A DNA stretch of 64,000 nt from Alphaproteobacteria bacterium (GTDB lineage: Bacteria > Pseudomonadota > Alphaproteobacteria > Micavibrionales > Micavibrionaceae). The stretch spans positions 62,001-126,000 of the forward strand of contig JAJFGS010000003.1 in NCBI GenBank assembly GCA_021775995.1, written 5' to 3'. A program made the translations under genes and the position numbers. A model generated the notes under the pieces. It was given only the letters and a program-made list of their open reading frames with translations. It searched no databases and was not told where the DNA came from. Shown in pieces: positions 16,748 to 30,935 of this stretch (positions within the stretch are counted from its first letter, which is position 1; every line of letters begins with the position of its first letter).

Positions 16748-17734
16748 ATGACTCATACAGATATCAAGACTGAAGGTTGGATTTCAAAATTACCAGCGTT
16801 TTGGCAACCATATGCGTTATTAATGCGGCTTGATCGCCCCATTGGTTGGTGGCTTCTTTTGTTGCCAGGTTGGTGGGGTATATTGCTTGGGGCGAATGGC
16901 GTTCAGGGAATGATTTTATCAGATATTCGTTTATTGGTATTATTTTTAATTGGCGCGATTATTATGCGGGGTGCTGGGTGTATTATAAATGATCTATGGG
17001 ATCGTGATTTAGACAAACAAGTTGAACGAACAAAAATGCGGCCATTGGCAAGTGGTCAGGTTTCAGTGTTTGGTGCAGTTATATTTCTTAGTTATCTTAT
17101 ATTCACCGCTTTTATCATTTTATTAATGACATCATATATCACCATTGTTCTAGGGGTCTTGTCACTTTTCTTTGTTGCGGTTTATCCATTGATGAAGCGT
17201 ATTACATGGTGGCCGCAGGCATTTTTAGGATTAACTTTTAATTTTGGTGCTTTGATGGGATGGAGCGCTTCCACGCATGATTTAAGAGTGGAGGCCTTGG
17301 TACTATACGCTGCAGGTTTCTTTTGGACGTTAGGGTATGACACAATTTATGCTCATCAAGATAAGGATGACGATGAAATTATAGGTATCAAATCAACGGC
17401 ACTTCTTTTTGGAAAGCGTAGTAAATTTTGGGTAGGTCTATTCTATATAATAACTGTGATGTTATTGGCGTTTTCTTTTTTCTTGGCAGATTCGGGACTT
17501 ATTACATTTATCCTTTTGGTTTTACCCGCAATTCATTTTTATCATCAGCTTAGAGATTGGGATATGGATGATCCTGAAAACTCGCTTTTGATTTTCAAAT
17601 CAAATCGTAACTTTGGATTGTTTGTTCTTTTGGCCATTGCATTTTCGCAAGTTATGCCAGAATTCGATTTGGACTCTTTCTTATCACATTTTAATTTCGT
17701 TAATGGTGATGGTGATGATGCGCTGCTAGACTAA
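16748..17734 (+). CDS. ubiA: 4-hydroxybenzoate polyprenyltransferase
   Basis: A 328-residue membrane prenyltransferase of ubiquinone synthesis. First Asp motif is NDLWDRDLDKQVERTKMRPL; the second lies in YDTIYAHQDKDDDE. It starts at ATG 16748 (MTHTDIK), which fits the family N-terminus better than the upstream ATG 16664 inside rsmE. The last 20 or so residues (ending NGDGDDALLD) extend past the usual fold, and the DNA for them is antisense to the His tail of the small ORF 17700-17909. Confidence 0.94.
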   Translation: MTHTDIKTEGWISKLPAFWQPYALLMRLDRPIGWWLLLLPGWWGILLGANGVQGMILSDIRLLVLFLIGAIIMRGAGCIINDLWDRDLDKQVERTKMRPLASGQVSVFGAVIFLSYLIFTAFIILLMTSYITIVLGVLSLFFVAVYPLMKRITWWPQAFLGLTFNFGALMGWSASTHDLRVEALVLYAAGFFWTLGYDTIYAHQDKDDDEIIGIKSTALLFGKRSKFWVGLFYIITVMLLAFSFFLADSGLITFILLVLPAIHFYHQLRDWDMDDPENSLLIFKSNRNFGLFVLLAIAFSQVMPEFDLDSFLSHFNFVNGDGDDALLD

Positions 17735-17909
17735 CCCATTCTCCGTATGAAATTGCGGAGTGAGCTTCGTCACTACACTTGTCATATTCTACCGTTCGAT
17801 CTTCATTGCTGCTATCGGTTTGTTCAGAATCATCGTCAGGCTTATTGTTCTTGTCTGCTCGAGCGAAGCTGTTGAATGAAAGGTGAAGATTGATATATAT
17901 GAGGCGCAT
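17700..17909 (-). CDS. small His-tailed acidic ORF behind a Fur box
   Basis: A 69-residue ORF that I do not recognise. It begins MRLIYINLHLSFNSFARA, which could be a short, weak signal peptide, then is rich in Asp, Glu, Ser and Asn, has one Cys near residue 45, and ends AAHHHHHH-stop. The six terminal histidines come from DNA antisense to the last codons of ubiA (35-bp overlap). A 16/19 match to the Fur box lies 17 bases before the ATG. No strong Shine-Dalgarno is visible. It may be an iron- or metal-responsive small protein, or the transcript may act instead as a Fur-controlled antisense RNA to ubiA. Reality of the protein is unproven. Confidence 0.45.
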   Translation of the reverse strand: MRLIYINLHLSFNSFARADKNNKPDDDSEQTDSSNEDRTVEYDKCSDEAHSAISYGEWVSLAAHHHHHH

Positions 17910-17925
17910 TTCGAGATCTTTTATT

Positions 17926-17944
17926 GAGAATGATTATCATCATC
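17926..17944 (-). promoter_or_regulatory. Fur box
   Basis: GAGAATGATTATCATCATC matches the classical 19-bp Fur consensus at 16 of 19 positions. It lies between the ends of two genes (ubiA and the NAD-GDH gene), so the only start it can control is the small leftward ORF at 17909 or a non-coding RNA. A possible -35, TTGATA on the minus strand, is at 17962-17967. Confidence 0.65.
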
Positions 17945-18009
17945 ATTTAAAAAATCTAAAATATCAAGAGGTTTTTACGATTTAAATCTTATTTTTTTAA
18001 AGAAGAGGG

Positions 18010-21000
18010 TTATCCCCCATATAGATTTCTTAATCTCTGTTCTGCAATAATTAACATAGAGAAATCAATATTGGCAGAGCGTCGATATTCATTGAAAAGC
18101 GGTTCTAGTAATTTTGCCTGTGCGCCACGATTACTAATCCATGATTGAAGAACGCTTTTGCATCCAATGCAACCAATATCATTTTTACTTTTTTTCTTAC
18201 CTTGTGTTATTTCGCTACCCATATCTTTTAAGATGCGAACTGTCAGTCCTGCTTGGCATGTATAAAGCTGATCTATAATGCCTTCTAATGCTTGGCTGGA
18301 CCATTCGCTTTCAGCTGGTAAGTGGCGTGCTTTTTGACGCATCCAATCAAGGTGAAAGTAGTCACCCAGTTCAAAATAAACACGTGCTGTAATGGCAATT
18401 TCAAATTTATAATCTACGGAAATACGAATAATATCACAGGCCGATCCTAAAATAGGCATAAGCGAAATATCATGCGCTAATTTTTTTGAGAGTCCATTTT
18501 CAATACCATTGTCGGTGATTTGCTTGATTTTATTAAGAAGTTCTTTTGGAACAACTGTTTCCATGTGGTTTTTAACAGTATCAATGCCACCTTGAAAGGC
18601 TTGAATATCACGGTTAATATCCAACTTTCGTCCATAACGTGTCAGGAACCATGTAACTGCTCGTTCAACCATGCGTGCTGTTTCTGATAAGGCTTTTAAT
18701 TGTACCATCGCAGGCACTGTACCATCTAATGATTCAATATCATTCCAGGTTTGCCTTAGATTGAATGCTTCACGGACTATGATATAGGCTTTGGCGACTT
18801 CTTCTGCGCTGGCACCACAATTATTCATACGATCGCGAATGAAGTCTGGCCCCATACGATTGACAATGCCGTTCGCTAATGATGTTGCAATGATTTGATT
18901 TCTAAGGCGGTGATTTAAGATTTCTGTTTTATATTTAACTCTTAGTTGTGGTGGAAAATATCTTATAAGACGTTCTTCCATTGCTTTTGTTTCAACGATA
19001 TCACTATCGAGTAATAATTGTGTGTAACAAATTTTAGCATAAGATTGTAAGACGCTTAATTCAGGTCTGGTAAGTCCTTGACCTATACGACTACGTTTTT
19101 CAATTTCGAATCGTTTTGGTAGTCTTTCTAGCGTTCGGCTTAAACCGACTTTTTCTTTTAAGAAATCCATAAGGTACCCATGAGATTCTACATTTTTAGC
19201 AGCTTGAAGCTCCATGAGGCTGATGCCCTGTGCCTGTTGATAATTCCCACGTAATATATGTTTGGATACGTCTTCTGTCATAGCTTCGAGAAGCTTGTTT
19301 CGTTTTTTAATGTCCATGTTGTATTTAGATTTACGTATGACATCATTAAGAAGAATTTTGATATTAACTTCATCATCAGAACAGGCGACTCCGCCCGCAT
19401 TATCAATGTAATCGGCGTTGAGAGAGCCGCCATTTTTAGCATACTCAATTCTTGCGAGCTGCGTCATAGCAAGGTTGGCACCTTCACCTATAATTTTTGC
19501 TCGAATTGCAGGGGCATTAATGCGTAAAGCATCGCTACCTTTATCACCAACATCGGAATCGGTTTCTTGCACTGCTTTAATGTATGTACCAATACCGCCA
19601 AACCATAATAGATCTGTTCGTGTTTTTAACATCGTGCGGATTAATTGATTAGGTGATATCTTATCTTCAGTGATATCAAAACGTTTTTTGATTTCGGATG
19701 TCAGGGTGAGACTTTTTTCGCTTCGTGAGAAAATACGACCGCCTTTAGATAGTAGTTTTTTATTGTAATCGCCCCATCCTTTTACTCCATTAAAAAGACG
19801 TAGGCGTTCTTTAAAAGTGGCTTTTGCATTTGGGTTAGGATCACAGAATATATGAAGATGGTTAAAGGCTCCAATAAGACATATATGTTCGGATAACAAC
19901 ATTCCGTTTCCAAACACGTCTCCACTCATGTCACCAACGCCGATAACGTCAAAATCTTGGGTTTGAGTATCAAAGTTAATTTCGTGGAAATGACGCTTTA
20001 CGGATTCCCATGCTCCACGCGCTGTAATACCCATGGCTTTATGATCATATCCAACCGAGCCGCCAGAAGCAAAAGCATCTCCTAACCAAAAATTATATTC
20101 ATCAGATAAAGCATTGGCAATATCAGAAAAAGTTGCTGTTCCTTTATCTGCGGCGACAACAAGATAGGGATCTTCTTCATCGTATAGAACAACATTATTA
20201 GGATGAATAATTTTTGTTCCTTTACGGTTATCGGTAATATCTAAAAGACCACGTATAAAGGTTTGATAACAAGCTATACCTTCTTCACGTATGGCATTTC
20301 GATCTCCATTTGGTGGAGGATTTTTGACCACAAAGCCGCCTTTTGCACCCATTGGGACGATGACTGCATTTTTAACTTGCTGTGCTTTCATTAGCCAAAG
20401 TATTTCAGTACGAAAATCTTCATGACGATCAGACCACCTTAAACCCCCACGGGCAATTTTATCTGCTCTTAGGTGCACACCCTCTACTCTTGCTGAATAC
20501 ACAAAAATTTCGCGATAGGGCTTAGGTTCTGGTAGATCATTGATTTGAGAACTATCTAATTTGAAAGATAAGTAATTTTTATAATTTCCATTTTCGTCTT
20601 TTTGGAAAAAGTTTGTTCTTAATGTTGCACATAAAATATTTATGATGCTGCGGAAAATACGGTCATGATCTAAAGAATCAACTTTTTCTAATGAATGGTA
20701 AATCGCTTTTTTACGTTCTTCTTTCTTTTTGCCAGATAGTTTTTTTAAATTAGGATCAAACATATCTTTAAAGAAAATTACAATTGCTTTTGCAATATCT
20801 GGGTGGCTTGTAATAGCACTTTCAATGTAGGGCAAACTAAAGGCAGATCCTGTTTGTCTTAAGTAGTGCGTAAAGGCACGCAATATAGCAATATCTTGCC
20901 ATGGCATTTGTGAATAGAAGGACAGCATATTAAGGCTATCATTTTCCATCTCAAGACCCCATGTTTTCTTGAAAACATCTTCAAAAGATTCTTTGGCTGA

Positions 21001-22869
21001 ATCAACATCAACTTGTTTATTTTGGAAGCTAGGCTCAAGTAGAAAATCATGAATCCAAATTTTATGTTTGTAATCTGCAGGTGTTACTCCAGATGGAAGT
21101 TCAGTAATAACATGGATTCCCATATTTTCCATGATTGGCAGAACATCAGAAAGAGCGATCGGTTTTTTAGAACGATATAGTTTAAGTCTTATTTCTTTAT
21201 TATCGCCATTCTTTTGTTCATAAAGTTCGATATCAATATTGTCACCATCAATAATATTATTGACTTTTTTCATATCCAGCACTGCTTGAGTAGAAGTGTA
21301 ATGTTCTTTGTAACTGATTGAAAAGGCATCGCCATATCTTTGAATTAAGGAAGCGGCTTGGTCTGGGTCTTCTATAGTATCTTCAATTGTATCACGGAGC
21401 TTATCCGCCCAATTGCGCCCAGCTTCTATTAATTTTTTTTCTAAATCATCATTGTTAATTTTGGGCGTTTTTTTCAAGGTATTGGTATCAATTAAAAACA
21501 AGACACGTGATAAAGGAGAATCGTCTTGCGAAACTTTATGATTAGAGCAAATGCCACCTAAGGACTTTTCGAGTACGTGTTGTAATTTAAGGCGTAACTG
21601 CGTTTCGTAGCGTTCTTTAGGAACGTAAACCAGACAAGAAATATACCTTCCAAAAGGATCTGGGCGCGTATAAAGTGCGATACGTGGCTTTTCTTGGAGA
21701 CGTAAAATACTGATAGCATGATCAAGCAATAATTGATCGGGCATTTGTAGTATTTCGTCGCGTGGATACTTTTCTAATATGTGCCTAATTGTTTTATGAT
21801 TATGCGAAGCATTTTTAAATTTTGATTTTTTAATAACATTTTCTGCCTTCATTCTTATATAAGGAATATTCATTACGCTACGCGAATAGGTAACAGAAGT
21901 AAAAAGTCCGATGAATAAGATTTCACCACTGACCTCACCATTCTTATTATATTTTTTAACTGTAATAGCATCTAAAGGAACACGGCGATGAACAGTAGAG
22001 CGCTTATTAACTTTAGAAACAGTTAATGGTTCTTGTTGGAAGCGCAATTTTTGCTGTTTTTCGGTTAAGTTTGTTTGTACTTCATTAACATAGACGGGTC
22101 GAACCTCGTCTGCGAGTAAACCAAGGCTTGAGCTTTTAATAACCTTGCTTTTGAGTTGGCCATTTGATTTTGAAAAAGAATATTCACGGCATCCTAATAA
22201 TGTAAAATTATCATCGTGTAAATAATCTAGGAAATCTTGATATTCTTTGACAGTTGCATCAGAATATTTGGCTGGTGCCGTTTTTAAGGTAGATTTAGCG
22301 TCTTTTAACTTTAGTTTAATTTTCGCCCAATCCTTATTTGCAAATTTGGTATCAATAAGAACTTGGTTTAATTGTTTTTTTAATTTTTTTGCCTGTTGAT
22401 TGCTAATTGCACGGTTTAATTCTACATGGATATGTGATTGTCCTTTGGTTTTGCCTTTTGTTATATTAGGAGAGAACTTGGTAACGTTGCCTTTGCTGTC
22501 ATGTGTGATGTGAAGGATGGGGTGGATAAAGACAGAAATTTGATAACCGTGACGGATAATTTCGGCGACAACTGAATCAACTAAAAATGCCATATCGTCG
22601 TTGACAATATCAATGACTGTTTGGCCTGCGTCCCATCCTTCGACTTTACGAGTAGGTGTGGAAATTGAAATAGCTGGTTTGCCACCAAATTTTCTTGATT
22701 TGCTTAATTCAAGATGGTTCTGTGCTGTATAAGCTAAATTCTCTGGCGCCATCATCTCGTAATCTTCTTTGGGAACATTCGTGTAGAATGTTTTGAAAAA
22801 AGTTCTATAATTATTGGAGTTTTTGCTTGATGGGCTTTTTTGCGTTTTGGTTAAAGGCGATTGGGACAT
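18010..22869 (-). CDS. large NAD-specific glutamate dehydrogenase
   Basis: A 1619-residue enzyme of the ~180-kDa NAD-GDH class, which oxidises glutamate to 2-oxoglutarate and ammonium. The long N-terminal regulatory part (about 1-720) contains ACT-like regions. The catalytic core carries GGLRWSDRHEDFRTE and the lysine block MGAKGGFV, then GDMSGDVFGNGML and IGEGANLAM in the NAD domain. A long C-terminal helical region follows. Length is normal for alphaproteobacteria. It feeds amino-acid carbon into the TCA cycle. It is monocistronic here. Confidence 0.95.
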   Translation of the reverse strand: MSQSPLTKTQKSPSSKNSNNYRTFFKTFYTNVPKEDYEMMAPENLAYTAQNHLELSKSRKFGGKPAISISTPTRKVEGWDAGQTVIDIVNDDMAFLVDSVVAEIIRHGYQISVFIHPILHITHDSKGNVTKFSPNITKGKTKGQSHIHVELNRAISNQQAKKLKKQLNQVLIDTKFANKDWAKIKLKLKDAKSTLKTAPAKYSDATVKEYQDFLDYLHDDNFTLLGCREYSFSKSNGQLKSKVIKSSSLGLLADEVRPVYVNEVQTNLTEKQQKLRFQQEPLTVSKVNKRSTVHRRVPLDAITVKKYNKNGEVSGEILFIGLFTSVTYSRSVMNIPYIRMKAENVIKKSKFKNASHNHKTIRHILEKYPRDEILQMPDQLLLDHAISILRLQEKPRIALYTRPDPFGRYISCLVYVPKERYETQLRLKLQHVLEKSLGGICSNHKVSQDDSPLSRVLFLIDTNTLKKTPKINNDDLEKKLIEAGRNWADKLRDTIEDTIEDPDQAASLIQRYGDAFSISYKEHYTSTQAVLDMKKVNNIIDGDNIDIELYEQKNGDNKEIRLKLYRSKKPIALSDVLPIMENMGIHVITELPSGVTPADYKHKIWIHDFLLEPSFQNKQVDVDSAKESFEDVFKKTWGLEMENDSLNMLSFYSQMPWQDIAILRAFTHYLRQTGSAFSLPYIESAITSHPDIAKAIVIFFKDMFDPNLKKLSGKKKEERKKAIYHSLEKVDSLDHDRIFRSIINILCATLRTNFFQKDENGNYKNYLSFKLDSSQINDLPEPKPYREIFVYSARVEGVHLRADKIARGGLRWSDRHEDFRTEILWLMKAQQVKNAVIVPMGAKGGFVVKNPPPNGDRNAIREEGIACYQTFIRGLLDITDNRKGTKIIHPNNVVLYDEEDPYLVVAADKGTATFSDIANALSDEYNFWLGDAFASGGSVGYDHKAMGITARGAWESVKRHFHEINFDTQTQDFDVIGVGDMSGDVFGNGMLLSEHICLIGAFNHLHIFCDPNPNAKATFKERLRLFNGVKGWGDYNKKLLSKGGRIFSRSEKSLTLTSEIKKRFDITEDKISPNQLIRTMLKTRTDLLWFGGIGTYIKAVQETDSDVGDKGSDALRINAPAIRAKIIGEGANLAMTQLARIEYAKNGGSLNADYIDNAGGVACSDDEVNIKILLNDVIRKSKYNMDIKKRNKLLEAMTEDVSKHILRGNYQQAQGISLMELQAAKNVESHGYLMDFLKEKVGLSRTLERLPKRFEIEKRSRIGQGLTRPELSVLQSYAKICYTQLLLDSDIVETKAMEERLIRYFPPQLRVKYKTEILNHRLRNQIIATSLANGIVNRMGPDFIRDRMNNCGASAEEVAKAYIIVREAFNLRQTWNDIESLDGTVPAMVQLKALSETARMVERAVTWFLTRYGRKLDINRDIQAFQGGIDTVKNHMETVVPKELLNKIKQITDNGIENGLSKKLAHDISLMPILGSACDIIRISVDYKFEIAITARVYFELGDYFHLDWMRQKARHLPAESEWSSQALEGIIDQLYTCQAGLTVRILKDMGSEITQGKKKSKNDIGCIGCKSVLQSWISNRGAQAKLLEPLFNEYRRSANIDFSMLIIAEQRLRNLYGG

Positions 22870-30834: not shown

Positions 30835-30935
30835 GGTGGAAGATCGGCGCGGGCGTAGCGTCATTGGACCCGGTCAGGTCTGAGAAGAAGCAGCCGCAGA
30901 TGAATTTGCTATGGGTCGCTGTCCGGTCTTCCACT
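30835..30935 (+). ncRNA. ffs: small SRP RNA (4.5S)
   Basis: About 100 nt. The apical domain has GGTCAGGTCTGAGAAGAAGC, close to the conserved GGUCAGG...GAAGCAGCC of the SRP domain IV loop, and the return strand is GGGTCGCTGTCC. The ends pair as GTGGAAGA (30836-30843) with TCTTCCAC (30927-30934). It lies just upstream of dnaX, its usual place in many alphaproteobacteria. It binds Ffh in co-translational targeting. Ends are estimated to within a few bases. Confidence 0.9.

Follow-up and report, generated by a model that had tools for sequence, protein, structure and literature searches.

A probable Fur operator and an orphan small ORF between the convergent ubiA and glutamate dehydrogenase genes of an uncultured alphaproteobacterium

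The ferric uptake regulator Fur acts at a 19-bp operator, the consensus of which we take to be GATAATGATTATCATTATC, and this sequence was used as the scoring reference. The preliminary description of the locus analyzed here also drew on a second kind of system, an iron-responsive RNA like RyhB. The nearest alphaproteobacterial iron-starvation sRNA that we met is RusT of Caulobacter, a trans-acting RNA that works with Hfq and is controlled by NtrYX and not directly by Fur (PMC11005374). A literature search on Fur and antisense together with ubiA or ubiquinone found no matching paper.

The window, a 64-kb stretch of DNA, belongs to the 2.0-Mb genome (15 contigs) of an uncultured bacterium (G000). 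The relatives of its ubiA are alphaproteobacterial MAGs, part of them named Micavibrio sp. ubiA, encoding a UbiA prenyltransferase, occupies 16748..17734 on the + strand (start codon judged from the sequence), and the gene for an NAD-specific glutamate dehydrogenase (gdh) faces it at 18010..22869 on the - strand. Their convergent ends enclose a 275-bp spacer (17735..18009), and a Fur-like 19-mer, GAGAATGATTATCATCATC, lies within it at 17926-17944, as the preliminary description had reported. Comparison with GATAATGATTATCATTATC gave 17/19 matching positions on the + strand and 16/19 on the - strand; the 16 positions counted earlier hold for the - strand only. The consensus scan did not reveal any other site of at least 15/19 in the window. 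An order-3 simulation of 4 Mb contained 1.25 sites per Mb at ≥16/19 and none at ≥17, and dinucleotide shuffles of 17690-18009 never reached 17/19 (0/2000; maximum 15), which places the match beyond chance.

A DNA search of the genus with the site gave, among the matches examined, six boxes of 16-17/19 elsewhere in five genomes: G004 (L136, 16/19), G001 (L138, 17), G006 (L148, 17, and L248, 16), G002 (L149, 16) and G007 (L144/L253, two boxes of 16). All six are intergenic, and a second box or half-box lies close to four of them. The remaining examined matches scored at most 15/19, L145 and L141 among them lying within ORFs. A 16-nt core, GAGAATGATTATCATT, is identical across the five congener boxes used for a weight matrix, and the site in the window equals it except for the last base. 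The matrix gave 17926-17944 a score of 29.2, compared with 13.1 for the runner-up across 864 kb of this genome; the higher score is inflated, because the boxes making up the matrix were found by their likeness to this very site. The intergenic positions of the congener boxes and the presence of an FTR1 gene behind one of them are free of this bias. The L149 box precedes the gene for an FTR1 iron permease (Pfam E 5.6e-33), with 19 nt from box to ATG. The L248 box precedes the gene for a 468-aa outer-membrane-like protein that begins like a signal sequence; its neighbor is a Dps-like gene (both assignments made by eye from the sequence). The boxes of L136, L138 and L148 stand 42-60 nt ahead of a conserved small protein. 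At L253 (G007:C72, 651-707), the two 16/19 boxes are 38 nt apart and have no obvious target gene. Because the site shares its form with six intergenic boxes of the genus, and its core recurs 19 nt before the iron gene FTR1, 17926-17944 is probably a genuine Fur operator.

The small protein behind three of the boxes (L136:1579-1785, L148:1561-1740 and L138:1168-1437, the last on the - strand) has 59-89 aa and contains the core RPxLxxLxIMxGxLxGGG..P..R.AYW. Its members are mutually 47-54% identical across 39-58 residues, and no match was found in Pfam or NCBIfam. Their boxes are strong and mostly paired, and in two of these genomes greA is found close by. The protein is possibly an unnamed member of the Fur regulon, and the operators that it and FTR1 carry would point to a compact Fur regulon in this uncultured genus. 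Since the operators at FTR1 and at the small protein are near-identical, the function of the latter becomes testable.

The genome of the window encodes one Fur-family protein; its best PDB matches are named ferric uptake regulation protein, and it scores below the NCBIfam Fur cut-off (96.9 of 146 bits). With one mismatch allowed, the core occurs at 24 places in the whole genome, 22 of them inside ORFs, one without an ORF near and one being 17926-17944, where "inside" refers to mechanical ORFs drawn from the first possible start and one place (L205) falls in the first codons, maybe upstream of the true start. These 24 places included no second intergenic operator of the same core. In 464 kb, intergenic Fur-like sites of at least 14 were not enriched (10, compared with a control mean of 5.3; 9/60 controls as high). 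A search of 864 kb (43% of the genome) did not recover FTR1, greA or the small protein, and no TonB plug domain turned up in the whole genome at E 1e-5 (the control gave a signal in 3/14). The lack of a TonB plug is unusual beside a Fur protein, and the FTR1-type uptake of a congener suggests another iron route. If Fur uses such boxes here, 17926-17944 may be one of very few, because the genome scans gave no further intergenic operator, FTR1 or small protein.

The only start near enough to be a target of the site is that of a leftward ORF at 17909..17700 (- strand), which begins with ATG, comprises 69 codons, and encodes an acidic product with one Cys and a C-terminal HHHHHH. In these respects the preliminary description was accurate, as it was in deriving the six His codons (17703..17720) from the strand opposite to the GAT/GGT run of the last ubiA codons. 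When the region was shuffled, ORFs of at least 69 codons arose on some strand in 5.4% of 2000 cases and on the minus strand in 2.7%. From 17721 to 17909, the frame is the sole stop-free frame of six. Its codon score exceeds that of 99.1% of shuffles and falls within the lowest 5.9% of real gene fragments, that is, codon use is moderately coding-like. On its own, the evidence for the ORF is weaker than that for the site. Searches did not reveal any significant match among 37 relatives, any match in phages, plasmids, IMG/VR, Pfam or NCBIfam, or any match besides itself among 385 genomes of the class at a threshold of E 0.02. Among 142 genomes of the order, two matches besides itself were obtained, in G070 (E 4.2e-4) and G097 (E 0.003); the latter is antisense to an RND-type gene and contains a stop, and was rejected. 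Found in no relative examined, the ORF is an orphan as far as these genomes go.

On the minus strand, TTGATA is followed by 17 nt, the box, 16 nt and the ATG, compared with TTGATT, 19 nt, the box, 19 nt and the ATG at FTR1 of G002; the box-to-start spacing thus resembles that of a presumptive iron-uptake gene. In three congener promoters, TTGAC stands about 13-14 nt ahead of the box. A possible leftward promoter, TTGATA-17-GATGAT (17939..17967, - strand; 9/12), is weak and overlaps the operator. A promoter scan of 17500-18200 gave 4 promoter-like sites compared with 2.1 (sd 1.5) expected, which is not above chance, and no clear ribosome-binding site was visible by eye ahead of the ORF.

Since the box is probably a real operator, a leftward small gene under Fur control is the natural reading, and because the ORF offers the sole start within reach, we tentatively favor a young Fur-repressed small gene over any other single reading. 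In this reading the genome's Fur protein works through the 19-mer, and metal-loaded Fur, when bound there, would cover a leftward promoter. Under scarcity of iron (or manganese), Fur would leave, and a short transcript encoding the 69-aa ORF would be made. Its translation would give an acidic small protein with a His tail predicted to bind metal, the tail arising where the ORF extends across the complement of the ubiA end. The unit would be young, lying in a spacer that is owned by the species and missing from its congeners.

Comparison with the nine other genomes of the genus, the nearest of which has 77-78% identity in UbiA, showed ubiA with a facing gdh in 9/9, and the spacer, site and ORF at the ubiA-gdh junction in 0/9. 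On the sequence side, this is the pattern that the preliminary description had named as speaking against its proposal. The best Fur-like 19-mer near the junction reached 12-13/19 in 9/9 congeners, and the site is not conserved at the orthologous place. In eight of the nine, the two genes share 4-50 nt at their ends; the ninth (G003) has a spacer of 1073 bp that is unrelated to the one analyzed here and holds an unrelated leftward ORF. By this comparison, the arrangement of spacer, site and ORF is species-specific. Overlapping ubiA and gdh ends were seen at L119, L120, L090, L122, L123, L124, L091 and L125, and in several of these the UbiA C-terminus PHIGF is therefore written by the antisense of the gdh end.

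A convergent gdh was seen at 34 of 37 whole-genome ubiA loci (L089-L125). Leaving this genome aside, the gap is 163-1073 bp in 13/33 loci and ≤57 bp, overlaps counted, in 20/33, some gaps being approximate because the ubiA stops of L095, L096 and L111 are read through or uncertain. The junction is thus variable within the family, and the gaps mostly hold unrelated orphan ORFs on either strand; among 12 gap proteins, only the pair from L094 and L096 shows signs of relatedness (E 7e-6 and 7e-4). Several origins of the spacer and ORF were considered and rejected. None of the 12 gap proteins, taken as possible sources of a remnant, matched the ORF better than shuffles (36-271/300 as good). The region 17690-18015 has no second copy in the genome, just short matches from E 0.16, and its 11-nt inverted arms, present in 13% of shuffles, do not indicate a mobile element. 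Nor do we claim that the former overlap was duplicated, as 13.4% of shuffles attained the alignment score of 10, and matches of 29-34 nt to phage DNA (E 0.03) were taken as chance.

A more specific course of events, which we consider unlikely, is that the gene was born within this species: the spacer would have gained an operator and an open frame, His6 would have been recruited from the antisense of ubiA, and the product would be a microprotein that binds metal and is repressed by iron, its transcript reaching over the ubiA end as well. If the young Fur-repressed small gene is real, it would plainly exemplify how a long-established regulator takes control of a newly arisen gene within a single species, the metal-binding tail being derived from the strand opposite a neighboring gene.

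Next after a young small gene, and possible though less probable, is a relic or stray operator, that is, a real Fur operator that arrived with the rearrangement behind the spacer or was left over from it, with nothing useful to control any longer and an incidental ORF beside it. The gaps of 163-1073 bp in 13/33 family loci show that insertions are tolerated at this junction, the ORF has no relatives, and the box pair of G007 likewise lacks a clear target gene. The open, moderately coding-like frame and a start spacing like that of FTR1 in G002 argue against an operator without function.

Improbable in our view is pure chance, in which both the resemblance of the 19-mer to a Fur box and the open frame of the ORF would be accidents of an AT-rich spacer. 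Four distinct places in the whole genome are within three mismatches of the consensus, 17926-17944 among them; the other three, at ≥16/19, all lie within long ORFs and fit the simulated density, and no Fur regulon is visible in the sampled part of the genome. Accident would nevertheless have to account for a score of 17/19 that local shuffling never produced, and for a core identical to the congener operators over 16-18 nt.

We give still less credence to the coding-like frame being a decayed fragment of prpD (2-methylcitrate dehydratase), from its N-terminal part. Outside its own genome, the ORF is matched best by the PrpD N-terminus of G070 (47%, residues 16-62, E 4.2e-4); six further PrpD N-termini beat 300/300 shuffles and a seventh 297/300, in a comparison that left out L165 and L182 (no frame) and in which L179 was probably read in a neighboring gene. 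A profile built without G070 placed the ORF first of 958 window peptides (E 0.08). Against this, the similarity is not significant given the genomes searched (142, and 385, the latter without a match besides the ORF itself), the ORF matches nothing in Pfam or NCBIfam, PrpD is absent from this genome, and the ORF does not retain the residues that form the hydrophobic core of the PrpD N-terminus. Of 19 other proteins compared with the ORF, 18 were unremarkable and L177 stood out (2/300 shuffles as good). With about 500 genomes searched, the likeness to PrpD is a lead, no more.

In the window, Rfam gave a single match over threshold, a bacterial small SRP RNA at 30838-30935 (+ strand); a match to JA02 (27 of 49 bits) was taken as chance. 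The preliminary description had left the choice between a metal-responsive small protein, which the congener-like operator favors, and a Fur-controlled antisense RNA on the ubiA mRNA, sparing iron as RyhB does; position and direction permit the latter, and weak leftward promoter-like hexamers overlap the operator, but it is a weak idea and very improbable, given that the spacer has no terminator (the sole terminator-like sequence within 17500-18200 lies where gdh ends, on the upstream side of the operator), the RNA fold does not surpass that of shuffles (z +0.88; 159/200 as good), no Rfam family exceeds its threshold here, the congeners retain ubiA without spacer, site or ORF, and UbiA is not known to be an iron enzyme.

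Set beside known systems, a young Fur-repressed small gene at this locus would have partial counterparts. RyhB and RusT are iron-responsive RNAs, the kind earlier proposed; the ubiA locus is unlike them in lacking structure, terminator and conservation. With the PrpD N-terminus the ORF shares a weak collinear similarity over residues 16-62, and differs in being without overall significance and without the catalytic part. The conserved small protein of the genus is likewise a small ORF behind a strong box, but the 69-aa ORF does not contain the RPxLxxLxIMxGxLxGGG core, and in direct comparison shuffles were often as good (117/200 for L136, 152/200 for L148); none were for L138 (0/200), where the 24 aligned residues lie outside the family core. 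The site itself differs from the Fur boxes of the genus in being set between two convergent genes, ahead of an ORF without relatives, and resembles them in its 17/19 consensus positions and in its core, which it has in common with the congener boxes, one of them ahead of FTR1. The switch is of an already known kind.
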